From Stigmatella erecta (GTDB taxonomy: Bacteria; Myxococcota; Myxococcia; Myxococcales; Myxococcaceae), in assembly GCF_900111745.1 (NCBI RefSeq), contig NZ_FOIJ01000015.1:1-64000 (forward strand): DNA of 64,000 nt. Direction: 5' to 3'. The notes under the pieces are model-generated. The model was not told the origin of the DNA. It made no database searches and saw only the letters and a program-made list of their open reading frames with translations. The translations under genes were made by a program, and so were the position numbers. Below are positions 20,087 to 45,770 of this stretch, piece by piece. Each line of letters begins with the position of its first letter. Positions within the stretch are counted from its first letter, which is position 1.

Positions 20087-21517
<1,431 letters not shown>

Positions 21518-21595
21518 CCGGAGCGGAGGATACCAAACAGCGCCGTCAGAGCTGCTCGGTCCCTCCCTTGCCCGTGCTAGGCTCCCGCGCCCTGC

Positions 21596-22615
21596 ATGCC
21601 CCCCTCCAAGGCGAAGAAGAAAAAGGTGCGAGCCCCGGCCCGCGCCGAGGCATCTCCCCGTGCCCCGGTGCCCGCGGCCCGCTCCCCGCGGCGCCCGGCG
21701 AAGAAGACGGTGGTGCTCCTGTCGCGCAAGCGCTCGCTGTACTCCACCGGCCGGCTGGTGGAGGCCATCAAGAAGCGGGGGCACCGGCCGCTGGTGCTCG
21801 ACACCCTGCGCTGCACCATGCTCCTGGCGAAGGACCAGCCGCGGATGATGTACCGGGGCGTGGAGATCCGCGGCGTGGACGTGGTGATTCCGCGCATCGG
21901 CGCCTCCATCACGGCCTACGGGCTGGCGGTGGTGACGCACTTCGAGATGATGCAGGTGCCGGTGGTAAACGAGGCCGGCGCCATCCTGCGCAGCCGCGAC
22001 AAGCTGCGCTGCCTGCAGCACCTGTCGCGCGCGGGGCTGGACATCCCCCGCACGGTGATGGCGCATGACCGCAGCAACGTGCGCAAGCTGGTGGAGGAGG
22101 TGGGCGGCATGCCCCTCATCATCAAGCTCATCCGGGGCACGCAAGGGGTGGGCGTGATGATCGCCCACACGCTCCAGGAGGTGCAGAGCATCGTGGACAC
22201 CTTCTGGGACCTGGGGCAGGAAATCGTCCTCCAGGAGTTCGTCGCCGAGAGCAAGGGCAAGGACGTGCGCGCCCTGGTGGTGGGCAACCGGGTGGTGGGG
22301 GCGATGCGGCGCCAGGCGAAGAAGGGCGAGTTCCGCTCCAACATCCACCGGGGAGGCGAGGGCCAGCCCATCGAGCTGCCCCCTGCCTACGTGGAGGCCG
22401 CCGTCACCGCGGCGCGCATCACCGGGCTGGGCATCGCCGGGGTGGACATGCTGGAGGGTTACGCGGGACCCCGGCTGATGGAGATCAACTCGAGCCCAGG
22501 CTTCGAGGGGCTGGAGTCCGCCACGGGCCAGGACATCGCCGGGGCGATGGTGGAGTACGCCCTGCAATTCGCGGAGACCAGGCAGGGGGGCGAGCGCGTC
22601 CGGCAGCCGCTGTGA
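21596..22615 (+). CDS. RimK-like ATP-grasp ligase
   Basis: The 339-residue protein has a Lys/Arg/Ala-rich N-terminal extension of about 35 residues. It is followed by the RimK-type fold: KTVVLLSRKRSLYSTGRLVEAI, VDVVIPRIGASITAYG, SRDKLRCLQHLSRAGLDIPRT, the ATP-grasp lysine in PLIIKLIRGTQGVGVMI, VLQEFVAESKGKDVRALVVG and the metal site RLMEINSSPGFEGLE. RimK-family enzymes attach glutamate (or other amino acids) to a protein or peptide C-terminus, and ribosomal S6 is the classical target. The substrate here is unknown. The basic extension may bind nucleic acid or ribosome. It is divergent from the FHA-sigma54 activator and precedes a DsbA/FrnE-type gene in the same direction. Confidence 0.9.
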   Translation: MPPSKAKKKKVRAPARAEASPRAPVPAARSPRRPAKKTVVLLSRKRSLYSTGRLVEAIKKRGHRPLVLDTLRCTMLLAKDQPRMMYRGVEIRGVDVVIPRIGASITAYGLAVVTHFEMMQVPVVNEAGAILRSRDKLRCLQHLSRAGLDIPRTVMAHDRSNVRKLVEEVGGMPLIIKLIRGTQGVGVMIAHTLQEVQSIVDTFWDLGQEIVLQEFVAESKGKDVRALVVGNRVVGAMRRQAKKGEFRSNIHRGGEGQPIELPPAYVEAAVTAARITGLGIAGVDMLEGYAGPRLMEINSSPGFEGLESATGQDIAGAMVEYALQFAETRQGGERVRQPL

Positions 22616-22734
22616 ACAGAGGTGCCGGGCATCCAAGCCCTCCACTTCGTGCGTCCTGCGGGAATGAGCGTCTGTGCCGCATGTCAGGAGGGGATTGGCA
22701 GTTGAAGGGCTCCCCTCTAATCTGGGCGCCCTTG

Positions 22735-32482: not shown

Positions 32483-35467
32483 TCACCCCTTGCCCGGCGG
32501 CTTGAGCGCCGGCGCATCCAGGGGCAGCTCCACCGTGAACGTGGCGCCGCCGCCGGGCGTGTCCGTCACGGTGATGGCGCCGCCATGGGCCTCCACCACC
32601 TGCCGGGAGACCCACAGCCCCAGGCCCAGCCCGCCATAGTGGCGCACGGGCACCGCGCGCTCGAAGCGGTTGAAGATGCGGGCGCGGTTCTCGGAGGCCA
32701 CGCCGAGGCCGTGGTCCACCACCTCCAGGCGCGCGCAGGGGCCCACCTGCTTGAGCCGCACCTCCACGGGCTTGCCCGCGCCGTACTTGATGGCGTTGGA
32801 CAGCAGGTTCTGCACGAGCTGCCCCATGCGCATCGCGTCCAGCCGCCCGGGCAGGCTCGCCGCCGACTCGAGCGTGAGCGAGCACCCCTGCCGCGCCATC
32901 TCCTCGCGCTGCTGGGCGACGCCGTCCGCCACGAGCGCGGCCAGATCCAAGGGCTCGGGCTTGAGCTGCAGCCGGCCCGTGGCCACCAGGGAGATGTCCA
33001 GCATCGTCTCGATGAGGCCCGCCAGCCGCTGCGTCTGCCGGCGCACCGCGAAGAAGCGCTCGCCCACCTGGGCGCGGACCTCTGCGGGCAGGGTGCGCTC
33101 CAGCGCCTCGGTCTGCAGCCGCAGGGCCGCCAGGGGCGTCTTCAGCTCATGGCTCGCCACGGACAGGAAGTCGTCCCGGGCGTGCACCGCCTCCTGGAGG
33201 CTCAGCGCGCTGGCCTCGCGCACGGCGGCCTCCCGGCGCAGGTGGGCCATCTCCAGGTTGGAGCGCACCCGCGCCAGCAGCTCCCGGGCGCTGAAGGGCT
33301 TCACCAGGTAGTCATCCGCCCCCGCCTCCAGCCCCTCCACGGAGGACTCCTCCCCCGCCCGGGCCGACAGCATGATGAAGGGCACCGCCTTCCACTCGGC
33401 CCGGGCCCGGACCTCGCGCAGCAGGCCAAAGCCGCCCAGCCGCGGCAACATCACATCCGAGAGGATGAGCTCCGGCGGCCGCGCCCGGAGCGCCTCCAGC
33501 GCCTCCATGCCGTCCGCCACGGCCTCCACCTCGAAGGCGGGCTGGAGCAGCCCGGTGATGTAGGCGCGCATGTCCGCGTTGTCGTCCACCACCAGCACCC
33601 GCGCGGCCGGAGCCGCCTCGGGGGGGGCCGCGGGCAACGGGGCCGGAAGGGGGGCGGGCTCCTTCAACCAGCCCAGGGCTTCCTCCAGGTAGGGGACCGC
33701 CAGCTCCGGGGAGGCCGGCCCGGAGCCCTCGGTGCGCAGGTGCTCCCGGGGCAGGTGCTCCTTGCCGAACGGCACGCGGACCGTGAAGGTGCTGCCCTGG
33801 CCCAGCACGCTGTCCACGGCGATGTGGCCCCCGTGCAGCGTGACGAGCTCCTGCACCAGCGACAGGCCAATGCCGCTGCCCTCGTGGCTGCGCGCGCGCG
33901 CGCCCTCCACCCGGAGGAAGCGCTCGAACAGGTGGGGCAGCACCTCCTGGGGAATGCCCGTGCCGGAGTCCCGGACGGAGAGGACGGCCTCGGGGCCTTC
34001 GGCGCGCAGGGTCACGCAGATGCCGCCCTCGAAGGTGTACTTGAGCGCGTTGGACAGGAGGTTGAAGACGACCTTCTCCCAGGCCTCCCGGTCCACCCAG
34101 ACGGGGCCGGGCAGGGCCGGCAGCTCCACCGAGAGCTTGAGCCCGGCGCGCCGGATGGCCGACTCGAAGTGGCTCACCAGCTCGGCGGTGAAGTGCGGCA
34201 GATCCGTGGCCTGGTACACCGCCTTGGCCCGGCCCGCCTCCAGCCGCGAGAAGTCGAGCAGCGTGTTGACGAGCTTGAGCAGCCGCCCCCCGCTGCGGTG
34301 CACCAGCGAAATCCGCTCGCGGTGGCGCGGCGGCAGGGCCTCCTGCCCGTCGGCCAGCGCGTCCTCCAGCGGGCCCAGCATGAGCGTCAGGGGCGTGCGC
34401 AGCTCGTGGCTGATGTTGCTGAAGAAGGCCGTCTTCGCCTCATCCAACGTCTGCAATTGCTCCGCGCGCTGCTTCGCCTCCTCGTAGGCGCGCACCCGGG
34501 CCACCTCCGCGGCCACCTGGCGCGCGAGCAGCTGGAGGAACTCCCGGTAGTCCTCGTCCAGCGCGAGCCGGGGGCTCAGCCCCGCCACGAGCACCGCGGT
34601 GGTCTCCCCGCTGCTTTCCCAGGAGAGGGGCATCGCCAGCGCGCGGGCGACGGGCTCCGGCCAGGGCCCCACCTCCAGCGCGCCGAAGCGCGTGCCCAGG
34701 TCCTCCAGCAGCACCGGCTGGCCCGAGCGCACCACCTCCTGCACGGGCCAGACCGGACCGTCCGCGAGGTTCAGCCGCGCCGGCGCGGGCGCGCTGCCCT
34801 GCTCCAGCCCCGTGCAGGAGACGAGCCGGGCATGCGGGCCCCCGCGGGACTCCACCGCGTAGAGCAGCGAGAAGGGCAGATCCGCGCGGGGCTGCGCCAG
34901 CAGGGACTGCACGGCCTGGAAGACGCCCTCCACGCTCTTCTCCAGCGCGGTGCGGATGGACAGCTCGCGGATGGCCCGCATGCGCCGCTCGGCCAGCGTC
35001 TGCCGCGTCGTCTCGCTCGCGAGGATGAAGATGCCCGCGAAGTGGCCCGCCTCGTCCTGGGTCGGAATGTAGGACCAGGAGACGAAGCACTCCTCGGGGA
35101 ACCCCCGCCGCTCCAGGAAGAGGATCTGCTCCTGGGTGTACGAGGCCTGCCGCGAGGTCCGGACCTGCTCGAGCATGGGGCCGAGGACGCCCCACGACTC
35201 GCTCAGCGCCTGCTCCACGGGCACCCCCAGGGCCGCGGGGTGCTTGGTGCCGAACACGGGGCGGAACGCATCGTTGTAGAGCAGCACGTACGCCTCGCCC
35301 CAGAACAGGGCCGCGGGGTAGGGCGAGGCGAGCATGGTGCTCACCGAGGTGCGCAGCGCGGGGGGCCAGCCGGCCACGGGCCCCAGCGGCGTCTGGCTCC
35401 AGTCGAAGGCGCGCATGAGCGCCCCCATCTCTCCGCCGCCCGCGAGGACGTGCGCCGTGCCGCTCAT
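32483..35467 (-). CDS. hybrid histidine kinase PAS-GAF-HK-REC-HK (downstream paralogue)
   Basis: A soluble 994-residue protein. It opens with the myxobacterial MGALMRAFDWSQTPLGPVAGW block and a PAS-like domain (to about 150). A GAF-like domain (about 165-320) and a first HisKA/HATPase (His354 in NISHELRTPL; ATPase to about 585) follow. A receiver (about 625-745) has phospho-acceptor Asp671 in LILSDVMLPRLGG and Lys in YLVKPFSARELL. A second HisKA/HATPase (His773 in VASHELKTPLAAL) ends the protein. Two kinase cores flank one receiver. The ATG overlaps the stop of the upstream paralogue (ATGA, 35464-35467), so translation is coupled. No membrane segment is evident. Output partner unknown. Confidence 0.93.
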   Translation of the reverse strand: MSGTAHVLAGGGEMGALMRAFDWSQTPLGPVAGWPPALRTSVSTMLASPYPAALFWGEAYVLLYNDAFRPVFGTKHPAALGVPVEQALSESWGVLGPMLEQVRTSRQASYTQEQILFLERRGFPEECFVSWSYIPTQDEAGHFAGIFILASETTRQTLAERRMRAIRELSIRTALEKSVEGVFQAVQSLLAQPRADLPFSLLYAVESRGGPHARLVSCTGLEQGSAPAPARLNLADGPVWPVQEVVRSGQPVLLEDLGTRFGALEVGPWPEPVARALAMPLSWESSGETTAVLVAGLSPRLALDEDYREFLQLLARQVAAEVARVRAYEEAKQRAEQLQTLDEAKTAFFSNISHELRTPLTLMLGPLEDALADGQEALPPRHRERISLVHRSGGRLLKLVNTLLDFSRLEAGRAKAVYQATDLPHFTAELVSHFESAIRRAGLKLSVELPALPGPVWVDREAWEKVVFNLLSNALKYTFEGGICVTLRAEGPEAVLSVRDSGTGIPQEVLPHLFERFLRVEGARARSHEGSGIGLSLVQELVTLHGGHIAVDSVLGQGSTFTVRVPFGKEHLPREHLRTEGSGPASPELAVPYLEEALGWLKEPAPLPAPLPAAPPEAAPAARVLVVDDNADMRAYITGLLQPAFEVEAVADGMEALEALRARPPELILSDVMLPRLGGFGLLREVRARAEWKAVPFIMLSARAGEESSVEGLEAGADDYLVKPFSARELLARVRSNLEMAHLRREAAVREASALSLQEAVHARDDFLSVASHELKTPLAALRLQTEALERTLPAEVRAQVGERFFAVRRQTQRLAGLIETMLDISLVATGRLQLKPEPLDLAALVADGVAQQREEMARQGCSLTLESAASLPGRLDAMRMGQLVQNLLSNAIKYGAGKPVEVRLKQVGPCARLEVVDHGLGVASENRARIFNRFERAVPVRHYGGLGLGLWVSRQVVEAHGGAITVTDTPGGGATFTVELPLDAPALKPPGKG

Positions 35468-38451
35468 GGGGGGCCTCCCGCGCCCCGCGCGGCCACCGTG
35501 AGGGGCAGGCGCACCGTGAACCGCGTCCCCTCCCCTGCCACCGACTTCACCTCCACGCGGCCGCCATGGGCCTTCACGATGTGGTCCACGATGTAGAGCC
35601 CCAGCCCCACGCTGCGTCCCACGGTGTTCCGGTCCTTGTCCCCGCGCTGCATGGGCTGGAACAGCCGCGGCACCAGCTCCGCCGGAATCGGCGCCCCCTC
35701 GTTGTGGACCTCCAGCACCCCCTCCGCGCCCTCCTCGTACGCCCGCACGCGCACGGGCGTGCCGTGGGGGCTGTAGTGCAGGGCGTTGCTGATGAGGTTG
35801 GTGAGCACCTGCGCCGTCCGGTCCCCATCCCAGAAGGCCTGCCCCGCCCCGCCCCGCTCCAGCTCGATGACCCGCTCGGGGTGCGCCACCTGGAGCTCGT
35901 CCACCACCTGCTGGCTCAGGGCATGGAAGTCGAGCGCCTGCGGGTGCAGGGGGAGCCCCCCGCCCAGCCGGGCCTGCGTGAAGTCGAGCAGGTCGCGGAT
36001 CATCCGGTTGGCGCGCTCCGCGGAGGCGAAGATGCGCCCGATGGGCCGGCGCTGGCGCTCCTCCAGGTCCGTGCGGCGCAACAGCGTCGCGGCCGACATG
36101 GTGATGGCGGCCAGGGGGTTGCGCAGATCATGGCTGACGATGCCGATGAGGTGCTGCTCGAAGTCGGCGCGCTCGCGCGCCAGGCGCTCCCGCTCGGCGC
36201 GCTCGCGTGCCAGGCGCAGGGCCCCCTCCACCCGGGCCAGCAGTTCCCGGGCGCTGAAGGGCTTCACCAGGTAGTCATCGGCGCCCGCCTGGAGCCCGCC
36301 CACCGTGGCCTCCTCGCCCGCGCGCGCGGACAGGAGGATGAAGGGCACGGCCGCGGTCCTCGGGTTGGCGCGGAACTCGCGCAGGAGCCCAAACCCATCC
36401 AGCCCCGGCATCATCACGTCCGAGAGCACCAGGTCCGGCACGCGGGCCTCGGCCGCCGCGAGCGCCGCCCGGCCTTCCGCCACCGCCTCGACGGTGAAGC
36501 GCGACTCCAGGAGCCGCCGCACGTAGTCGCGCATGTCCGCGTTGTCGTCGGCGAGCAGGATGTGGCCCTGGGGCGCCTGGCTCCGGGGCAGGGGGACCTC
36601 GGGGGGCGGCACCGGGGCCGTCTCCGGCTCTGGCCGCGTGCTGCCCAGCCACCCGGAGGCCTCGTTGAGGAAGGGAGCCACCCGCACGCTGGCGGGGGCC
36701 GCGGCGCGCGAGGCGGCGAGCCGCTCCCGCGGCAGGTGGGCGGAGCCGGCCGGCAGGGACACGGTGAAGGTGCTGCCCTGGCCCAGGGTGCTCTCGGCCC
36801 GGACGGTGCCGCCGTGCAGCTTCACCAGCTCCTGCACCAGGGACAGGCCAATGCCGCTGCCCTCGTGGCTGCGGCCCTTGGCGCCGTGGACGCGGTGGAA
36901 GCGCTCGAAGACGCGCGGCAGCTCCTCGGGGGGAATGCCCGTGCCGGTGTCGCGCACGGACAGCTCCACGTGGTCCACCCGCCACCGCAGCGCGACGCCA
37001 ATCTCTCCCTCGAAGGTGAACTTGAGCGCGTTGGAGACGAGGTTGAGGACAACCTTCTCCCACATCTCCGGATCCACCCACACGGGGGCGGGCAGCGGGG
37101 GGCAGTCCACCCCGAGGCGCAGCCCGGCCTTGGCCACGGCGGAGTCGAACGCGCTGGCCAGGCCCACGGTGAGGGCGGCAAGGTCCGTGGGCTGGTAGCT
37201 GGCCTGCATGCGGCCTGCTTCCAGGCGGCTGAAGTCCAGCAGCGTGTTGACGAGCTTGAAGAGGCGCAGGCCGTTGCGGTGGACGCGCTCCAGCGCCTCG
37301 CGCTCCTCGCGCTCCAGCCGGTCCGAGGCGAGCACGTCCTCCACGGGGCCGAGCATGAGCGTGAGCGGCGTGCGGAACTCGTGGCTCACGTTGCTGAAGA
37401 AGACGGTCTTGGAGCGGTCCAGCTCGGCGAGCGTCTCCGCGCGGCGCTTCTCCTCCTCGTAGGCGCGCGCGTTGGCGATGGCCGTGGAGATGTGGCCGGC
37501 GACGAGCCCCATGAAGCCCCGGTACTGGGCGTCATACGCGAGGCGGATGCTCAGGCCCGCGATGAGAAAACCCGGCGAGCCGCCCTCGGCCCCGCCCTCC
37601 AGGGGGAGCACCACCGCCTGGGTAGCGGCGCGCGGCGCCACGGGCTGGAGCACCATGCCCAGATGATGGGACAGGGCCTCGATCGCGAGGGGCTCGCGCG
37701 ACAGGAGCCGCCCGGCCAGGGGGCCACCCTCCTTGAACAGCTCCAGGCCGAGCCGCCCGGGCGGGGGGACATGCCCGGCGGGGAGCCCCGTGGCGGCGGC
37801 GAGGGAGAGCTGCTTGCCGTCCGCCTCGCACAGGTAGAGGAGCACGAAGGGCAAGTCATTGGGGTTGTCGCCGAGCGCCCGGGCCGCGCGCAGGGCGGCG
37901 TCATCGACCCGCTTGGCCTGGAAGGAGCTGGCGGAGACCTGCTGGAGGGTGTGCAGGCGCCGCTCCCCGAGCACCTGGCTGGTGGTCTCCTGGGCGGTGA
38001 CGAGCACGCCACCATAGCGCCCGGAGCCCTCGGGGATGGGGCTGTACGAGAAGGTGAAGTAGGTCTCCTCGCTGAAGCCCTTGCGGTGCATGGGGAGGAA
38101 GAAGTGCTCGGCCCACTCGGACGTGCCGTGGCGGAGGACCTTCTCGTGCAGGGGGCCGAGAACGTTCCAGATCTCCGGCCAGGCCTGGGAAGCGGGGGCG
38201 CCCAGGGACGCGGGGTGCTTGTCGCCCAGGATGGGGCGGTAGGCGTCGTTGTAGAACTGGAGCAGGCGCTCGCCCCAGCGGATCGCCATGGGAAAGCGGT
38301 TGCTGAGCACCACACCCACCATGGTGCGCAGGGAAAGCGGCCAGGACTCCACGGGGCCAAGCTCCGTCTTTGCCCAGTCGAAGGAGCGCATGAGGGCACC
38401 CATCTCGCCCCCCTCCGCGAAGACGTCCTCGGCTGTGCTACCGGAACTCAT
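35464..38451 (-). CDS. hybrid histidine kinase PAS-GAF-HK-REC-HK (upstream paralogue)
   Basis: From ATG 38451 (MSSGSTAEDVF) the 995-residue protein has the same domain order as the next gene: MGALMRSFDWAKTELGPVESW opening, PAS, GAF, HisKA/HATPase (His357, NVSHEFRTPL), receiver (Asp678, LVLSDVMMPGLDG; YLVKPFSARELL) and a second HisKA/HATPase (His774, GIVSHDLRNPLAAI). The H boxes of the last kinase differ between the two (SHDLRNP against SHELKTP), placing them in different kinase subclasses despite otherwise parallel sequence. An ancient tandem duplication is likely. The pair forms one operon, divergent from the ptuAB-like genes across 233 bp. Confidence 0.93.
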   Translation of the reverse strand: MSSGSTAEDVFAEGGEMGALMRSFDWAKTELGPVESWPLSLRTMVGVVLSNRFPMAIRWGERLLQFYNDAYRPILGDKHPASLGAPASQAWPEIWNVLGPLHEKVLRHGTSEWAEHFFLPMHRKGFSEETYFTFSYSPIPEGSGRYGGVLVTAQETTSQVLGERRLHTLQQVSASSFQAKRVDDAALRAARALGDNPNDLPFVLLYLCEADGKQLSLAAATGLPAGHVPPPGRLGLELFKEGGPLAGRLLSREPLAIEALSHHLGMVLQPVAPRAATQAVVLPLEGGAEGGSPGFLIAGLSIRLAYDAQYRGFMGLVAGHISTAIANARAYEEEKRRAETLAELDRSKTVFFSNVSHEFRTPLTLMLGPVEDVLASDRLEREEREALERVHRNGLRLFKLVNTLLDFSRLEAGRMQASYQPTDLAALTVGLASAFDSAVAKAGLRLGVDCPPLPAPVWVDPEMWEKVVLNLVSNALKFTFEGEIGVALRWRVDHVELSVRDTGTGIPPEELPRVFERFHRVHGAKGRSHEGSGIGLSLVQELVKLHGGTVRAESTLGQGSTFTVSLPAGSAHLPRERLAASRAAAPASVRVAPFLNEASGWLGSTRPEPETAPVPPPEVPLPRSQAPQGHILLADDNADMRDYVRRLLESRFTVEAVAEGRAALAAAEARVPDLVLSDVMMPGLDGFGLLREFRANPRTAAVPFILLSARAGEEATVGGLQAGADDYLVKPFSARELLARVEGALRLARERAERERLARERADFEQHLIGIVSHDLRNPLAAITMSAATLLRRTDLEERQRRPIGRIFASAERANRMIRDLLDFTQARLGGGLPLHPQALDFHALSQQVVDELQVAHPERVIELERGGAGQAFWDGDRTAQVLTNLISNALHYSPHGTPVRVRAYEEGAEGVLEVHNEGAPIPAELVPRLFQPMQRGDKDRNTVGRSVGLGLYIVDHIVKAHGGRVEVKSVAGEGTRFTVRLPLTVAARGAGGPP

Positions 38452-38684
38452 GCCTCCATCCTTCCGAGCTGGGCCGCGCGGGCATGCACGCACCGGCATA
38501 CCAGGGCCCCCCTCCGGGGGGACTGAAAACTTGGGGCGCCCTCCGCCATCCGCACTGTTCCGAACGGCTCATCCCCCGAAGAGCCCCCAGGCCGCGTGCT
38601 CGATGGTTGGTCAGGGTGTGACGCGCGGAAATTTGACGAGCCCGTAGAGGCCGAGGTCTTCTGCCCTGCGGGAGCCACTGTACA
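38452..38684. other. divergent intergenic region between hybrid kinases and the Septu-like genes
   Basis: The gap contains a C6-TCC-G6 hairpin (38507-38521) on the kinase side and no open frame of note. A TACAAT at 38681-38686 overlaps the ptuA-like ATG, so it cannot be its -10 box. I see no retron-like RNA or reverse transcriptase. Confidence 0.5.
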
Positions 38685-39953
38685 ATGCGAGCGCTAGAAC
38701 TCACCATCCGAGGATTTCGGGGAATTCCTTATTTACATCTTCCCCTGAGGCCCTCCCTGACGGTTCTCGTCGGAGTGAATGGCTCGGGCAAGACGACGAT
38801 CCTGGATGCGCTCGCCGTGTTGATGATGGCGCTTCAAAGCCGGATCCTGCGCGGAAAGAGGAAGGGAGACCGTTCACTCCATGTCTCCGACGTCAACACA
38901 CGGCTGAAGGAGACGCACCTCTCCATCCAAGCGGAGGTTGGCGGCGAGAAGCTTTCCTGGGAGGTGAATGGGCGTTTGTTTTTCGCTCGGCTTCAAGTCG
39001 AGGAAAGCGATACGGACCTCCGCCGGTTCGCGAATGAATTGGCGGAACGCCAGTCGAAGAACGCGGACGTCAGCATTCCCCTGGCGGTCTACTTCCCTAC
39101 CAACCGGGCCGTGCTGGACATTCCCCAGCGGATTCGAACGACGCATGTGTTCGATCAACTCGCGGCCTATGACAACAGTCTCGATGACAACTGGAGCAAT
39201 TTCCGGCTCTTTTTCGAGTGGTTCCGGGACCGGGAAGATCTTGAAAACGAGGCGCGGCGGGACAACCCGGACGCACGGGATGTGCAACTGGAGGCAGTCC
39301 GCCAAGCGGTGAGCTCGCTACTGCCTGGCTTCACGGATTTGCGTATCCGGCGGCAACCGGCTCTGGCCATGACGGTCGAGAAGGACAACGAACTCCTGGC
39401 GGTGGACCAGCTCTCGGATGGAGAGAAGTGCGTCCTGGCGCTCGCGGGAGATCTGGCGCGAAGGCTGTCCCTGGCACATCCCCAGGAGCACCAGCCCCTG
39501 GCGGCCCCAGCCTTGGTGCTCATCGACGAGATCGAATTGCACCTCCACCCGGGCTGGCAGCGGGGCATCATCGCTGCCTTGAAGCGCACGTTCACGGGCT
39601 GCCAATTCGTGATCACCACGCACTCACCCCAGGTCCTGAGCGAAGTCCATCCCGACGACATCCTCTTGTTGAGCCATCGGGCGGGGGCCTTCGAGGTTCA
39701 CAGCGCGGAGAATTCATTTGGACGTGATTCGAACTGGATCCTCCAGACCATCATGGGCGTTGACGCACGTCCGCCTCGGGTGGGGGAGCGCTTGCGGAGT
39801 TGCTTCCAGCTCATCGACGAGGGACGGCTCAAGGAGGCCCGGGAAGAGAAGAACGCCCTTGCAAGAGAGATTGGGGATGACGATCCCGAGCTGCTTCGGG
39901 CCGAATTGATCCTGCGGCGCAAGGAGTTGCTGACGCGTGCGCCCCATTCTTAA
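38685..39953 (+). CDS. ptuA: AAA/ABC-type ATPase, PtuA-like component of a Septu defence system
   Basis: The 422-residue protein is a RecF/SMC-like ATPase in one chain. It has Walker A GVNGSGKTT (30-38), a helical middle with VYFPTNRAVLDIPQRIR, the ABC signature-like DQLSDGEKCVLALAGDLARR (about 245-264), Walker B LVLIDEIELHLHP (about 278-290) and the H-loop ITTHSPQVLSEV (about 308-319). In Septu systems PtuA binds and hydrolyses ATP and holds the PtuB nuclease until phage infection. The HNH gene overlaps its 3' end by 17 nt, matching ptuAB order. Codon third positions are less GC-biased than in flanking genes, consistent with horizontal acquisition. OLD-family ATPases are the alternative, but they carry a Toprim domain that is absent here. 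Confidence 0.85.
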   Translation: MRALELTIRGFRGIPYLHLPLRPSLTVLVGVNGSGKTTILDALAVLMMALQSRILRGKRKGDRSLHVSDVNTRLKETHLSIQAEVGGEKLSWEVNGRLFFARLQVEESDTDLRRFANELAERQSKNADVSIPLAVYFPTNRAVLDIPQRIRTTHVFDQLAAYDNSLDDNWSNFRLFFEWFRDREDLENEARRDNPDARDVQLEAVRQAVSSLLPGFTDLRIRRQPALAMTVEKDNELLAVDQLSDGEKCVLALAGDLARRLSLAHPQEHQPLAAPALVLIDEIELHLHPGWQRGIIAALKRTFTGCQFVITTHSPQVLSEVHPDDILLLSHRAGAFEVHSAENSFGRDSNWILQTIMGVDARPPRVGERLRSCFQLIDEGRLKEAREEKNALAREIGDDDPELLRAELILRRKELLTRAPHS

Positions 39954-40599
39954 GAGACCAGAGCCTGCCACCTTCACGGCTTGGAAGGGCGGCCTCGCCT
40001 CCGTACCCGGCTGGAACCATTTCACGCAGACGTTTCCGCTCATCAAGCGCGACTTGAAGGCGGCGCTGCTCCAAGAACAGTTTCAGGTGTGCTGCTACTG
40101 TGAGCGTGACATCGCAGGTGGAGCGCACATCGAGCACCTGGTACCGAAATCCTTGGACCCCGGCAGGACGTACGACTACTCGAACCTGCTGGCCTCGTGC
40201 GAGGGTGAACGGGCGAAAGGGCGCCCGCCGGAGACCTGCGGGCACCTCAAGGACAATGCTCCCCTCTCCGTCCATCCGTTGATGCCGGATTGCAGCAGCT
40301 ATTTTGTTTTCAGCAGTTCGGGCAATGTCAGCCCCTCCCCGGATGCGGCCAAGCAGCAACCTGCTCAGGACTCCATCACGACGCTGGGGCTCGACAGTGC
40401 TCGACTCGTCGCGCTGCGGCGAGTCGCCCTCGAGGACGCGGACTCCCGGCTCCCCTCCCCGGGGAACACACCCGAGGACCGCGCCCTCTTCCGTGCAGAA
40501 GTCACGAAGCTGATCGCGGAGTATTCGGCGCCCGATGCGCAAGGACGGCTCACGCCCTTCTCGACCGCCTTGGTGCAGTACCTTGAGCGTTATCTCTAA
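39937..40599 (+). CDS. ptuB: HNH endonuclease, PtuB-like component of a Septu defence system
   Basis: Start GTG 39937 lies inside the ATPase gene (17-nt overlap). The 220-residue protein has the TIGR02646-type HNH core: VCCYCERDIAGGAHIEHLVPKS (51-72, quoted in two parts in the family: CxYC then IEHxxPK), YDYSNLLASCEGE with the HNH Asn83 and Cys88, and a further CGHLKDN. The cysteines should bind a structural zinc and His67 is the metal/catalytic His. PtuB nucleases degrade nucleic acid when released by PtuA. The tail (about 150-220) is helical. With the ATPase this makes a complete two-gene Septu cassette, with no integrase or reverse transcriptase nearby. Confidence 0.85.
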   Translation: MRPILKRPEPATFTAWKGGLASVPGWNHFTQTFPLIKRDLKAALLQEQFQVCCYCERDIAGGAHIEHLVPKSLDPGRTYDYSNLLASCEGERAKGRPPETCGHLKDNAPLSVHPLMPDCSSYFVFSSSGNVSPSPDAAKQQPAQDSITTLGLDSARLVALRRVALEDADSRLPSPGNTPEDRALFRAEVTKLIAEYSAPDAQGRLTPFSTALVQYLERYL

Positions 40600-40667
40600 C
40601 CACCGGGAAGTCCTGGCCGCAGGCTCAGCGCGAGCAGGCACCGCCCCCCGGCAGGCACCGCTCGCCG

Positions 40668-42590
40668 CTACAGCTCCACCTGTGTGCCCAGCTCCACCAC
40701 GCGGTTGGGCGGAATGCGGAAGTAGGACGTGGCGCTGCGCGCGTTGCGGCTCATCCACGCGAAGAGCGCCTCGCGCCAGATCGCCATCCCCGGCTTCTTC
40801 GAGGGAATCAATGTCTCGCGCCCCAGGAAGAACGACGTGCTCATCAGCTGGAACTGCAGCCCCTGCTCCCGTCCCCGCTTGAGGATGTCCGGAATGCTCG
40901 GGTTCTCCATGAAGCCGTAGCGCGCGATCACCCGCACGAAGCCCTGCTCCAGCGGCTCCACCTCCACCCGCTCGGAGGCGGGCACGTGCGGCACCTCTTC
41001 CGACAGGATGGTCAACAGCACCACCTGCTCGTGCAGCACCTTGTTGTGCTTCAGGTTGTGCAACAGCGCCGGCGGCGTGCCCTCGGGGTTGCCCGTCATG
41101 AACACCGCCGTGCCCTGCACCCGGTGCGGCGAGTGGTCCCCGCTCAGGCTGTCCAGGAGCCCCTTCAGCTCCATGCTCGCCTCGCGCAGCTTGGCCGCCA
41201 GGATCTCCCGCCCGCGCTTCCACGTCGTCAGCAGCGTGAAGAGCAGCGCCGCCAGGATCAGCGGGAACCAGCCCCCATCCGGAATCTTCACCGCATTGGC
41301 GCAGAAGAACGACACATCCACCGCCAGGAACAGCCCCACCAGCGGCAGCGCCACCCGGCGCTTCCAGCCCCACCGCTCCCGGGCCACCACGTACGCCAGC
41401 ACCGTGGTGATGGTCGCCGTGCCCGCCACCGCGATGCCATACGCCGCCGCCAGCGCGCTGGAGGAACGGAAGCCCAGCACCAGGAACACCACCCCGCCCA
41501 GCAGCAGGAAGTTCAGCCCCGGCAGGTAAATCTGTCCCATCTCCTCCGCCGAGGTGTGCACCACCTCCATGCGCGGGCAGTACCCCAGCTGCATCGCCTG
41601 CCGCGTCAGCGAGAAGACGCCCGAGATGAGCGCCTGCGAGGCGATCACCGCCGCCATCATCGCCAGCCCCACCAGCGGGTAGAGCGCCCACGAGGGCGCC
41701 AGCAGGTAGAACGGGTTGCGCGCCGCCTCCGGCGCCCTGAGGAGCAGCGCCCCCTGCCCCAGGTAGTTGAGCATCAGCGCCGGCAGCACCAGCGTGAACC
41801 ACGCCAGGCGAATGGGCTTGCGGCCGAAGTGGCCCATGTCCGCGTAGAGCGCCTCGCCGCCCGTCACCACCAAGAACACCGAGCCCAGCACCAGGAAGCC
41901 GTGCGCCCCGTTGTGCAGGAAGAAGCGCACCCCGTGCACCGGCGACAGCGCCTCCAGCACCACCAGGTTGTGCAGCAGCTCCTTCACGCCCAGCACCGCC
42001 AGCGTGACGAACCACAGCGTCATCACCGGCCCGAACAGCGCGCCGATGTCCGCCGTGCCCTTGCGCTGCAACACGAAGAGCCCCAGCAGGATGATGAGGC
42101 TGATGGGCAGCAGGTACGGCTGGAACAGCGGCGTGGCCACGCTCAGGCCCTCCACCGCGCTCAGCACCGACATGGCCGGGGTGATGATGCCGTCCCCATA
42201 CAGCAGCGCCGCGCCGAACAGCCCCAGCCCCACCAGCACCGGCCGCGCCGGGTGCGGCGAGCGCACGCCCCGGGGCCGCTGCAGCACCAGCGCCATCAAC
42301 GCCAGGATGCCGCCCTCGCCCCGGTTGTCCGCCCGCATCACGAACAGCAGGTACTTCATCGAGATGAGCAGGAACAACGACCAGAAGATCAGCGACAGCA
42401 CCCCCATCACGTTCTCGGGCGTCGGGGTGATGCTGTGCGGCCCGCTGAAGCACTCTCGCAACGCGTACAGCGGACTCGTGCCGATGTCCCCGTAGACGAT
42501 GCCCAGGGCTCCCAGGGCCAGCGTCGCCGTGCGTTTGAAGGTGTCCGGTGCCTCGGGAAGGGGCTCCGGCGCTGCCGTGGTCGCGTTCAC
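40668..42590 (-). CDS. kup: Kup-type low-affinity potassium uptake transporter
   Basis: Kup is an inner-membrane K+/H+ symporter. The 640-residue protein has the family opening LALGALGIVYGDIGTSPLYAL, MRADNRGEGGILALMAL, GDGIITPAMSVLSAVEGL and about twelve membrane helices. A cytoplasmic C-terminal domain of some 180 residues contains VFMTGNPEGTPPALLHNLKHNKVLHEQVV and ends in YFRIPPNRVVELGTQVEL. GTG 42590, preceded by a GGGGCGG-type ribosome site, is the most likely start. An ATG at 42650 would add 20 unconserved residues. It is convergent with the ptuB-like gene. No riboswitch or KdpD-type regulator is visible nearby. Confidence 0.95.
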   Translation of the reverse strand: MNATTAAPEPLPEAPDTFKRTATLALGALGIVYGDIGTSPLYALRECFSGPHSITPTPENVMGVLSLIFWSLFLLISMKYLLFVMRADNRGEGGILALMALVLQRPRGVRSPHPARPVLVGLGLFGAALLYGDGIITPAMSVLSAVEGLSVATPLFQPYLLPISLIILLGLFVLQRKGTADIGALFGPVMTLWFVTLAVLGVKELLHNLVVLEALSPVHGVRFFLHNGAHGFLVLGSVFLVVTGGEALYADMGHFGRKPIRLAWFTLVLPALMLNYLGQGALLLRAPEAARNPFYLLAPSWALYPLVGLAMMAAVIASQALISGVFSLTRQAMQLGYCPRMEVVHTSAEEMGQIYLPGLNFLLLGGVVFLVLGFRSSSALAAAYGIAVAGTATITTVLAYVVARERWGWKRRVALPLVGLFLAVDVSFFCANAVKIPDGGWFPLILAALLFTLLTTWKRGREILAAKLREASMELKGLLDSLSGDHSPHRVQGTAVFMTGNPEGTPPALLHNLKHNKVLHEQVVLLTILSEEVPHVPASERVEVEPLEQGFVRVIARYGFMENPSIPDILKRGREQGLQFQLMSTSFFLGRETLIPSKKPGMAIWREALFAWMSRNARSATSYFRIPPNRVVELGTQVEL

Positions 42591-42752
42591 CCGCCCCGCT
42601 TTAGCTGAACCCACGCCCGGAGCAACCGGCAGACAGGCCCAAGCCCGCACATTCCAGCTTCAGCGGAATCTCAACCCCGTCTGTCCGTGAAATGGGGGAC
42701 CTCTGGGGCCTCCGCGCCCCCGGGGCCCCCCGAAAAAGCCCCGGGGCGGACC
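42591..42752. other. intergenic region between truncated haemoglobin and kup
   Basis: It contains two copies of CCCCGGGG (about 42718-42725 and 42739-42746) separated by a short A-rich loop. They can pair as a hairpin and may terminate the haemoglobin transcript on the minus strand. No gene is seen. Confidence 0.4.
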
Positions 42753-43196
42753 TCAGCCCTCGGTGTTGCGCAGGAAGTCGCCCGTGTGCTGGAAGCGCTC
42801 CTCCAGGAAGCGCCGCAGGCCCCCCGTCACGCCGCGCGCGTCCATCGCCTTGCGCATGCAGCGCAGCCACGCATCCCGCATGGCGGTGTCCACCGGCACG
42901 TGGCCATGGCGCATGCGCAGGCGCGGGTGGCCATGGCGCTCCACGTAGTGCTGGGGGCCGCCCAGCCAGCCCACCAGGAACAGGCCGAAGCGCTCCCGCG
43001 TGCCCGCGTTCACCCGGCCGTTCGCATCGAGCGCGTGCAGCTGGGCGAGCGCGGGCTCGTCCGCGTCCATGGCGTCATAGAAGGCGCCCGCCAGCGCCAT
43101 GACCTCCGCCTCGCCCCCGATGCGTTGGAAGGGGGTGTCCTCCAGCGAGGGAATCCAGTCGTCTTCGGTGGGGAGCGTCTTGAGCTGAGGAAGCAT
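42753..43196 (-). CDS. group II truncated haemoglobin
   Basis: A 147-residue haem protein of the 2/2 globin type. Marks of group II are FYDAMDADEPALAQLH, FGLFLVGWLGGPQHYVERHGHP, RMRHGHVPV with the proximal His of the F helix, and RDAWLRCMRKAM carrying the conserved Trp at G8. These globins bind O2 or NO and often assist redox stress defence; the exact ligand is not deducible. Start ATG 43196 (MLPQLKTL); an upstream start would add a Pro-rich leader. The gene follows the FEN-type nuclease gene on the same strand, 37 bp downstream. Confidence 0.9.
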   Translation of the reverse strand: MLPQLKTLPTEDDWIPSLEDTPFQRIGGEAEVMALAGAFYDAMDADEPALAQLHALDANGRVNAGTRERFGLFLVGWLGGPQHYVERHGHPRLRMRHGHVPVDTAMRDAWLRCMRKAMDARGVTGGLRRFLEERFQHTGDFLRNTEG

Positions 43197-43233
43197 GGAT
43201 GGTGTCAACCCGGCAGGAGGCGGGCGCATTCTC

Positions 43234-44124
43234 TCAGATGCCGCCCGCCTCCGCCCACCGTTTGGGACGGGCCTTGAGGGTGGTGAGCCCCAGCCGGTCG
43301 CACATCGCCTCGAAGGGGGCCCGGGGCACCCCCTTCCACGCGAGCGCCCCCAGGGACTCCTTCAGGGGCGCGTCCGTCACCAGCGTGGCGAGCCTCCGGT
43401 AGAGCAGCGCCTCCTCGCGGTGCTCCCGGAGCGTGGCCGCCAGCCGGTCCGCGCCGCGCGGGCGCACCGACCAGTCCGCCGCCTCCGCCGGGATGGCCTC
43501 CAGGTGGCCGTAGGCCGTGAGCAGCGCGGCGGCCCCCTTCCCCCCGAAGCCCGGCAGCCCGGGGATGCCGTCCGCGTCGTCCCCCACCAGCGCCAGCAGA
43601 TCCGGCACGCTCGCCGGGGGCACGCCGAGCTTCGCGCGCACCCCTTCCGCGTCCAGTTCCTTCTCCTGGCGCCGGTCCACCTGCACCACGCGCTGGCCCC
43701 GCACGCACTGGCCCAGGTCCTTGTCCGGGGTGAGCAGCCGCACCTGCTCCACCTGATCCGCCCAGCGCGCCGCCGCGGTGGCCAGCGCATCGTCCGCCTC
43801 GTGGTCCTTCATGGACCAGGCAGTGACGCCCAGCGCGCGCACGGCCTCCTCGGCCAGGTCGAACTGCGCGAGCAGCTCCGGGGGCACGCCCTCCTCGGAC
43901 TTGTAGCCCGCGAACAGCGCGTTGCGGAACGAGCGGATGGGGTTATCGAAGGCCACCGCCAGGTGCGTCACCGCCTCGGCCTTGTCGTGCAAGAGCGCGA
44001 GCAGCGAGGACATCAACCCCACGGTGGCCTTCACGTCCTGCCCATCCGGCGCCTCGTGCCCCGGCCGGGGCGAGAAGTGCGCGCGAAACAGCTCATACGT
44101 TCCGTCAACCAGGTGCAGACGCAT
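43234..44124 (-). CDS. 5'-3' exonuclease / FEN-family nuclease (PolA N-domain-like)
   Basis: A stand-alone 296-residue flap endonuclease-type protein like the N-terminal domain of DNA polymerase I. Metal-binding acids lie in HLVDGTYELFRAHF, KDHEADDALATAAA, RLLTPDKDLGQCV and LALVGDDADGIPGLPGFGGKGAA; the last part is the helix-hairpin-helix/H3TH region that tracks DNA. It would remove 5' flaps or RNA primers. A loop after GYKSEEGVPPEL forms the helical arch. It is probably an accessory to PolA in Okazaki fragment processing or repair. A Pro/Arg C-terminus is short. It is divergent from the lipoprotein pair at 44263. Confidence 0.9.
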   Translation of the reverse strand: MRLHLVDGTYELFRAHFSPRPGHEAPDGQDVKATVGLMSSLLALLHDKAEAVTHLAVAFDNPIRSFRNALFAGYKSEEGVPPELLAQFDLAEEAVRALGVTAWSMKDHEADDALATAAARWADQVEQVRLLTPDKDLGQCVRGQRVVQVDRRQEKELDAEGVRAKLGVPPASVPDLLALVGDDADGIPGLPGFGGKGAAALLTAYGHLEAIPAEAADWSVRPRGADRLAATLREHREEALLYRRLATLVTDAPLKESLGALAWKGVPRAPFEAMCDRLGLTTLKARPKRWAEAGGI

Positions 44125-44262
44125 GGGGGAGACCTTGGCAACCGGGCTGGCTGGAGAGCAAGCGTCCTCGCGCGAGGCGGGTTGCTGGCCTGTCCTTCCG
44201 TCCCCACCTCATGGGCCATGGGGTGGCCCGGCATCCCGGGCGTTTTGCCCGGAGGGAAGACC

Positions 44263-44625
44263 ATGCGCAACACGCTTCTGGCCGCGGTCCTGGCACTGGG
44301 CGCTTCGGCGTGTGCCACGGCCCAGGTGAAGTCCGAGGCCCCCACGGCCCGGCTGGCCGAGTCCACCGCGACGGTGCGCGCCGCGCGGGAGGCCGGGGCG
44401 GCCGTGGTGCCCGAGGCCGCCACCTACCTGGGGTTTGCCCAGCAGCAGGTGCTCCAGGCCGAGGCGCTGATGGCCCGGGGCGAGCACGAGGCGGCGGACC
44501 TTCAGTTGCGGCAGGCGGTGGCGGATGCGCGGCTGGCGTTCGCGCTGGCCCAGGCGGTGCCATTGGAAAACGAGGCGCGGCAACTGGCCGAGCAGGCCGA
44601 GCGCCTGCGGCGCGGACTGCGCTGA
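44263..44625 (+). CDS. small DUF4398-like lipoprotein
   Basis: A 120-residue lipoprotein from ATG 44263, preceded by GGAGGGAAGA. Its signal ends in GASAC (Cys near 17). The mature part is two or three amphipathic helices (LAESTATVRAAREAGAAVVPEA; YLGFAQQQVLQAEALMARGE; LQLRQAVADARLAFALAQA, quoted in parts) of the DUF4398 kind, which often accompany OmpA-like proteins. It precedes the OmpA-domain lipoprotein by 20 nt in the same direction, so they are likely one operon acting at the outer membrane/peptidoglycan interface. Confidence 0.8.
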   Translation: MRNTLLAAVLALGASACATAQVKSEAPTARLAESTATVRAAREAGAAVVPEAATYLGFAQQQVLQAEALMARGEHEAADLQLRQAVADARLAFALAQAVPLENEARQLAEQAERLRRGLR

Positions 44626-44645
44626 AGCCTAAGGGGAGTTACGGC

Positions 44646-45770
44646 ATGCGACGGTGGAAACGATGGGTGTGGGGCTGTGCGGGGGCCGCCGGGCTGATGT
44701 CGGGGTGCATGGCGCACGGCCCGCCGCCGCGGGAACTCGTGGATGCCCGGACGGCCTACCAGCGCGTCTCGGTGAACCCCACCGTGCGCCAGCAGAGCGC
44801 GGAGCCGCTGACGGAGGCGTACCACGCGCTGCTCGCGGCCGAGCGCGAGTACGACCGCTCCAAGGACTCGGCGAAGACGCGCTCGCTTGCGTACGTGGCG
44901 CTGCGCAAGGCGCAGCTCGCGGAGACCCAGGCCAGCATCGCCGTGGCCCAGCACCAGCGGTCCGTGGCCGCCCAGGCGCTGCGGCAGACGCAGGAAGCGC
45001 AGCGCCGGCAGTCCCAGGCCCAGCTCGACGCGGCCCAGCAGCAGCTCCTGGAGGCCCGGCGGCTCCGGGATGAGGCGGCGCAGCTCGCCGAGGCGCGGCG
45101 CCTCCAGTCGCAGACCGCCCAGCTCCAGCAGGAGGCCCAGCGCCGCCAGGAGGAGATGGACCGGCTCGCCCAGGCCCAGCGCCAGCAGACCGAGGCGGGC
45201 GCCCAGGCCCAGCGCCTGGCCCAGGTGGAGCAGGAGCTGGAAGCGGAGCGGCGCGCGCGCGCCGAGGCCGAGGCCCGCGCCAACCAGGAGCGCGAGGCCC
45301 GCGCCCAGGCCGAGGCCCAGGCCGCCACGGCCCTGGAGGGGCTCGCGCGCCAGGGCCAGGTGAAGGTGAGCGAGGACGCGCGCGGCACGGTGCTGACGCT
45401 CTCGGGCAGCGTGCTGTTCGCCTCGGGGGCCACGGACCTGCTGCCCTCCGCGCGCGACCGGCTCGTCGAGGTGGCCGAGGCCCTGAAGCCCACCGGCAAC
45501 ACCCTCACCATCGAGGGCCACACGGATGCCCAGGGCTCGGATTCTACCAACGAGATGCTGTCCCTGCGCCGCGCGGAGCGCGTCCGGGACTTCCTGGTGA
45601 CCCAGGGCGTGCCCGCCGGGCGCGTCGAGGTGCGCGGCATGGGCGAGTACCGCCCGGTGGCCAGCAACGGCACCGCCGAGGGACGCGCCAACAACCGCCG
45701 CGTGGAGATCATCCTCCAGCGCAACGAGCCCACCGGCATCGGCGGCAGCGGACGGGGGAGCCCGCGCTGA
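44646..45770 (+). CDS. OmpA-family lipoprotein with long coiled coil
   Basis: A 374-residue lipoprotein (GLMSGC, Cys near 21). A DUF4398-like N-terminal part (about 30-105; ARTAYQRVSVNP, EYDRSKDSAKTRSLAYVALRKAQ) is followed by an Ala/Gln/Arg-rich coiled coil (about 105-240). The C-terminal OmpA peptidoglycan-binding domain (about 250-370) contains LTLSGSVLFASGATDLLPSA, IEGHTDAQGSDSTNEMLSLRRA, VEVRGMGEYRP and RANNRRVEI. The Asp and Arg that bind diaminopimelate are present. It should tether the outer membrane to peptidoglycan. The operon partner is the small DUF4398 lipoprotein. Confidence 0.92.
   Translation: MRRWKRWVWGCAGAAGLMSGCMAHGPPPRELVDARTAYQRVSVNPTVRQQSAEPLTEAYHALLAAEREYDRSKDSAKTRSLAYVALRKAQLAETQASIAVAQHQRSVAAQALRQTQEAQRRQSQAQLDAAQQQLLEARRLRDEAAQLAEARRLQSQTAQLQQEAQRRQEEMDRLAQAQRQQTEAGAQAQRLAQVEQELEAERRARAEAEARANQEREARAQAEAQAATALEGLARQGQVKVSEDARGTVLTLSGSVLFASGATDLLPSARDRLVEVAEALKPTGNTLTIEGHTDAQGSDSTNEMLSLRRAERVRDFLVTQGVPAGRVEVRGMGEYRPVASNGTAEGRANNRRVEIILQRNEPTGIGGSGRGSPR

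Follow-up and report, generated by a model that had tools for sequence, protein, structure and literature searches.

The locus raises the question of whether two overlapping genes, found between a histidine kinase gene and kup in Stigmatella erecta, form a complete anti-phage system, and of how they came to lie there. We analysed a window of 64,000 nucleotides (contig NZ_FOIJ01000015.1, positions 1 to 64,000), where an initial annotation had proposed a Septu cassette in which an SMC-like ATPase overlaps by 17 nt with a TIGR02646-type HNH nuclease. Both the coordinates and the overlap of this proposal were exact, and the features of the locus are the following:

35464-38499, minus strand: left neighbour, an open reading frame for a hybrid histidine kinase, divergent from ptuAB
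38614-38684, plus strand: non-coding leader of ptuA, which holds its ribosome-binding site; around 70 bp conserved with the G017 pair (DNA alignment)
38685-39953, plus strand: ptuA, by homology a PtuA-type ABC/SMC ATPase of Septu (PtuA1), 422 aa, start ATG
39937-39953, plus strand: ptuA/ptuB overlap of 17 nt, GTGCGCCCCATTCTTAA, read directly
39937-40599, plus strand: ptuB, by homology an HNH nuclease of TIGR02646 (PtuB1), 220 aa, start GTG
40668-42650, minus strand: right neighbour, kup (PF02705)

Each start is preceded by a Shine-Dalgarno-like stretch, GGGAG at 38670-38674 for ptuA and AAGGAG at 39921-39926 for ptuB, and homology marks both genes as coding, far beyond chance. Long open reading frames antisense to ptuA and ptuB were regarded as high-GC artefacts.

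Regarding the family of the pair, the PADLOC search that had been suggested as a check scored both proteins: PtuA matched the PtuA1 model PDLC00271 over residues 2-417 (E 1.1e-140) and PtuB the PtuB1 model PDLC00332 (E 1.7e-48). TIGR02646 (NCBIfam) gave 97.1 bits on PtuB, above its cut-off of 52.15, and the Pfam matches of the pair were AAA_21, AAA_15, SMC_N and HNH. When compared with the PDB, PtuA aligned with the stand-alone PtuA 8ee4 in a single stretch (residues 2-416, E 4.9e-36) and with the retron Ec83 PtuA in two pieces flanking an extension and an insertion (E 1.1e-52), while the best of all solved chains for PtuB was the 8ee7 PtuB (E 4.6e-14). The pair is a Septu pair, as had been proposed: the PtuA1 and PtuB1 models and the solved Septu chains match, and the gene order, the overlap and the motifs fit. 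The ABC/SMC core is common to this ATPase and to RecF, RecN and Rad50, which would leave room for a housekeeping SMC/RecF-like ATPase working with an HNH partner in DNA repair and not in defence. However, the PtuA scores beat the repair-ATPase scores by hundreds of bits, and the homology search gives PtuA and not an unrelated non-defence family; the foreign composition and the patchy, non-syntenic distribution described below also speak against it. Model scores and distribution together rule against a housekeeping identity, and the repair role is largely refuted by the lack of conservation of the pair among relatives, so we give it a practically negligible chance.

The motifs expected of both proteins are in place; those of PtuA were read from the sequence and compared with its homologues, and that of PtuB was taken from the alignment:

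38772-38795, plus strand: Walker A, GVNGSGKT, residues 30-37; K36 is invariant in 34 homologues
39408-39428, plus strand: ABC signature, QLSDGEK, residues 242-248; Q242, L243, S244, G246 and E247 are invariant in the alignment
39513-39530, plus strand: Walker B, ending in D281 E282, both invariant (34 PtuA sequences)
39615-39632, plus strand: H-loop, TTHSPQ, residues 311-316; T312, H313 and S314 are invariant in the alignment
40090-40200, plus strand: HNH core of PtuB, with C52, C55, H67, N83 and C88

H67 is found in all 68 sequences of the PtuB alignment and N83 in 67 of them. The cysteines C52, C55, C88 and C101 are conserved as well, and the four of them plausibly make up a zinc site. In the Septu system EcB88, immunity is lost when K43 or D316 of Walker A/B, or H75 or N91 of the HNH part, is substituted (PMC13096335). 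All these immunity-essential residues have counterparts here, namely K36 and D281 in PtuA and H67 and N83 in PtuB.

A reverse transcriptase preceding the pair is what defines Septu type II (PMC8565338). No reverse transcriptase was found near ptuAB: the 9.2 Mb genome has a single PF00078 match, which is on contig 10, and ptuAB is on contig 15. In the search for a retron non-coding RNA, no Rfam family reached its gathering score in 34500-45000, although Rfam does not cover all retron RNAs. Furthermore, the retron Ec78 equivalogs NF041760 and NF041761 (NCBIfam) scored 278.6 and 94.1 bits, below their cut-offs of 500 and 150 bits respectively. The three results agree with the earlier statement that no reverse transcriptase or retron RNA is near and that the pair is hence not the retron form, and the retron-linked form (group I-A, Septu type II) was rejected.

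As to the origin of the pair, GC3 was 74.4% in ptuA and 77.3% in ptuB, while the flanking kinases and kup have 94-97%. Of the 39 called genes, for which the window median is 93.5%, these two have the lowest values, and the weaker third-position bias described previously is thus confirmed. The comparison of related genomes, which had also been proposed, gave a clear pattern of presence and absence. In the sister species G003 the whole region is present with 97% DNA identity, whereas the pair is missing at the kup site in G002, G005, G006 and G020. In three of these, G002, G006 and G020, kup lies directly against a gene that is ATP-grasp-like to judge by its sequence, with nothing between them, and the congener G005 delimits the insert:

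38593-40665, no strand: rough limits of the insert; G005 carries unrelated DNA instead, and its alignment with the window breaks off at 38592 and picks up again at 40666

The two insert-junction stretches compared for terminal repeats had no 9-mer in common, either direct or inverted. The left histidine kinase is common to G003 and G005, and no match to it was seen next to kup in the remaining relatives of the comparison. Therefore the view that the pair arrived horizontally as a bare two-gene insert between core genes has to be corrected in one point: the insert stands and kup is a conserved neighbour, but the histidine kinase is not conserved beside kup.

Outside the sister species, the nearest pair was found in another genus (G017), 73%/65% identical and in a genomic setting without connection to kup. 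We observed a patchy distribution, and not the synteny across all myxobacteria that would have counted against the initial proposal. A quick tree joins our pair firmly with that of G017, and only weakly with cyanobacterial and other myxobacterial pairs. Among the 83 homologous loci examined, which come from archaea, Bacillota, Cyanobacteria, Pseudomonadota and others, an adjacent ptuB is kept in 79 and overlaps ptuA in 68. Distant PtuA relatives are also present in plasmid records and in a few phage records. The G017 pair itself lies between two small, mutually similar genes without Pfam matches (L065:6455-7018 and L065:9199-9660), a position that looks as if the pair had been inserted into a tandem paralogue array.

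The leader holds the 18-mer GCGGAAATTTGACGAGCC (38625-38642), which is identical in the G017 pair. A regulon search found a single copy of it in the source genome, and among 20 relatives it was exact only in G000 and G003, with four 2-mismatch matches elsewhere, about as many as in the reversed-pattern control. No sigma-70 promoter came out of a scan of the locus, and the terminator scan gave a single terminator-like site, which lies within ptuA and is below the level expected by chance.

Between S. erecta and G003 the ptuA genes differ by 11 synonymous and 1 non-synonymous nucleotide differences (dN 0.001, dS 0.036), and this comparison indicates that PtuA is evolving under purifying selection between the sister species. 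For PtuB we counted 2 non-synonymous differences and 1 synonymous difference, numbers too small to show selection. These data bear on the idea that ptuAB is a decaying remnant without present defence activity, an idea that the turbulence of the site might suggest, as G001 carries the wreck of another Septu beside kup. Nevertheless, both frames are intact with all their catalytic residues, PtuA appears to be constrained, and the leader is conserved with G017; consequently we find a remnant very unlikely.

Regarding that wreck, the gene beside kup in G001 is a 220-aa frame (L060:5598-6260, minus strand) in which a PtuA-like N-terminus is fused to the nuclease part of a PtuB. Around 41 N-terminal residues resemble PtuA (PDLC00269, E 2.5e-10) and the nuclease part belongs to a different PtuB subfamily (PDLC00317, E 8.8e-61), so that the frame is apparently what a deletion left of another Septu at this site. 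In addition, an undescribed gene of 465 aa occupies the kup 3' flank in G005 (L059:5021-6418, minus strand) and in G004 (L058:4822-6219, minus strand); PADLOC gave no match for it, and Pfam nothing beyond an IQ motif under the threshold. The 3' flank of kup seems to have been used more than once. One could go further and propose that defence cargo docks there recurrently in the genus, that two unrelated Septu lineages and the 465-aa gene, which may itself be a defence gene, each took the site independently, and that the leader of around 70 bp conserved with G017 is a dedicated regulator of this Septu lineage. We put this forward tentatively and consider it rather doubtful.

Some other observations were made in these regions. 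In G004 a 111-bp copy of the kup 3'-end, 91% identical (L058:4681-4790), is found beyond the 465-aa gene, as if an insertion had duplicated a piece of kup or carried it along. Further along the same flank, a DUF3223 protein (L058:1142-1807, plus strand) matches Hachiman HamC models (E 1.7e-45), and the flank also holds two Imm11-like genes. In our own window, an 852-aa protein (20087-22645, minus strand) matches the AAA-HTH part of PADLOC RtcR/PspF-like models (E 8e-107), and it is probably an ordinary sigma-54 activator.

With the genes, the family, the intact catalytic residues, the conserved pairing, the foreign composition, the patchy distribution and the purifying selection on PtuA taken from ptuAB itself, we are highly confident in reading ptuAB as a complete anti-phage system of the stand-alone Septu type I, horizontally acquired as a bare two-gene unit of around 2 kb beside the 3' end of kup. 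Characterised relatives are the source for the expected complex formation, ATP control, nuclease activity and defence, and even the nearest relative pair is only 73%/65% identical, the characterised Septu systems being more distant still. In such relatives PtuA and PtuB are reported to form a large oligomer (Li et al. 2024, a reference of PMC13096335). Inhibition of the complex by ATP is regarded as a property of Septu type I. By analogy, PtuA would assemble into an ATP-bound oligomer that keeps PtuB inactive, and phage infection would alter the ATP state or provide a trigger that releases the HNH nuclease. The released PtuB would then cut nucleic acid, with phage DNA and host tRNA (for instance tRNA-Tyr) as the candidate targets, and phage production would be blocked, perhaps with the loss of the infected cell.

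What this nuclease cuts concerns the substrate and not the identity of the system. The closeness of PtuB to 8ee7, which we take to be the Septu of E. coli ATCC 25922, leans slightly towards the DNA route, and that Septu is cited in PMC11555353 as targeting nicked DNA. For tRNA-Tyr as the substrate, EcB88 cuts tRNA-Tyr (PMC13096335), the PtuAB of retron-Eco7 depletes it (PMC11555353), and PtuA here scores well also against the retron PtuA chains. On the other hand, tRNA is probably not the target of the PtuAB of retron-Eco4 (PMC11555353), and therefore the substrate varies among members. Together with the resemblance of PtuB to 8ee7, this leads us to rate tRNA-Tyr a serious candidate whose chance falls somewhat below even.

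Septu-type pairs are known in thousands and therefore ptuAB, as a stand-alone Septu type I system, is real but ordinary, and the understanding of Septu is unchanged by it. It adds one more, well-supported myxobacterial data point on defence gene flow, with a foreign composition and relatives that lack the pair at the same site. Looking forward, it offers a divergent PtuAB for asking whether the general substrate of Septu is DNA or tRNA-Tyr.

Finally, ptuAB can be set against three known systems. The group I-A retrons (Ec78/Eco7 and Ec83/Eco4, equivalent to Septu type II) have PtuA and PtuB effectors homologous to those found here; however, the retron PtuA has an N-terminal extension and an internal insertion in the alignment, and PtuA here is without both. 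The PtuAB of E. coli (PDB 8ee4/8ee7, Septu type I) shares both genes and their order and likewise lacks a reverse transcriptase, and its PtuA is collinear with ours over residues 2-416; it has 465 residues against 422 here and the sequence identity is low, with no other notable difference. EcB88, also from E. coli (PMC13096335), is a stand-alone ptuA-ptuB pair like this one. The cleavage of tRNA-Tyr has been demonstrated there, whereas for the pair here it is a candidate activity, and the spacing between H75 and N91 of EcB88 is 16, the same as that between H67 and N83 in PtuB.
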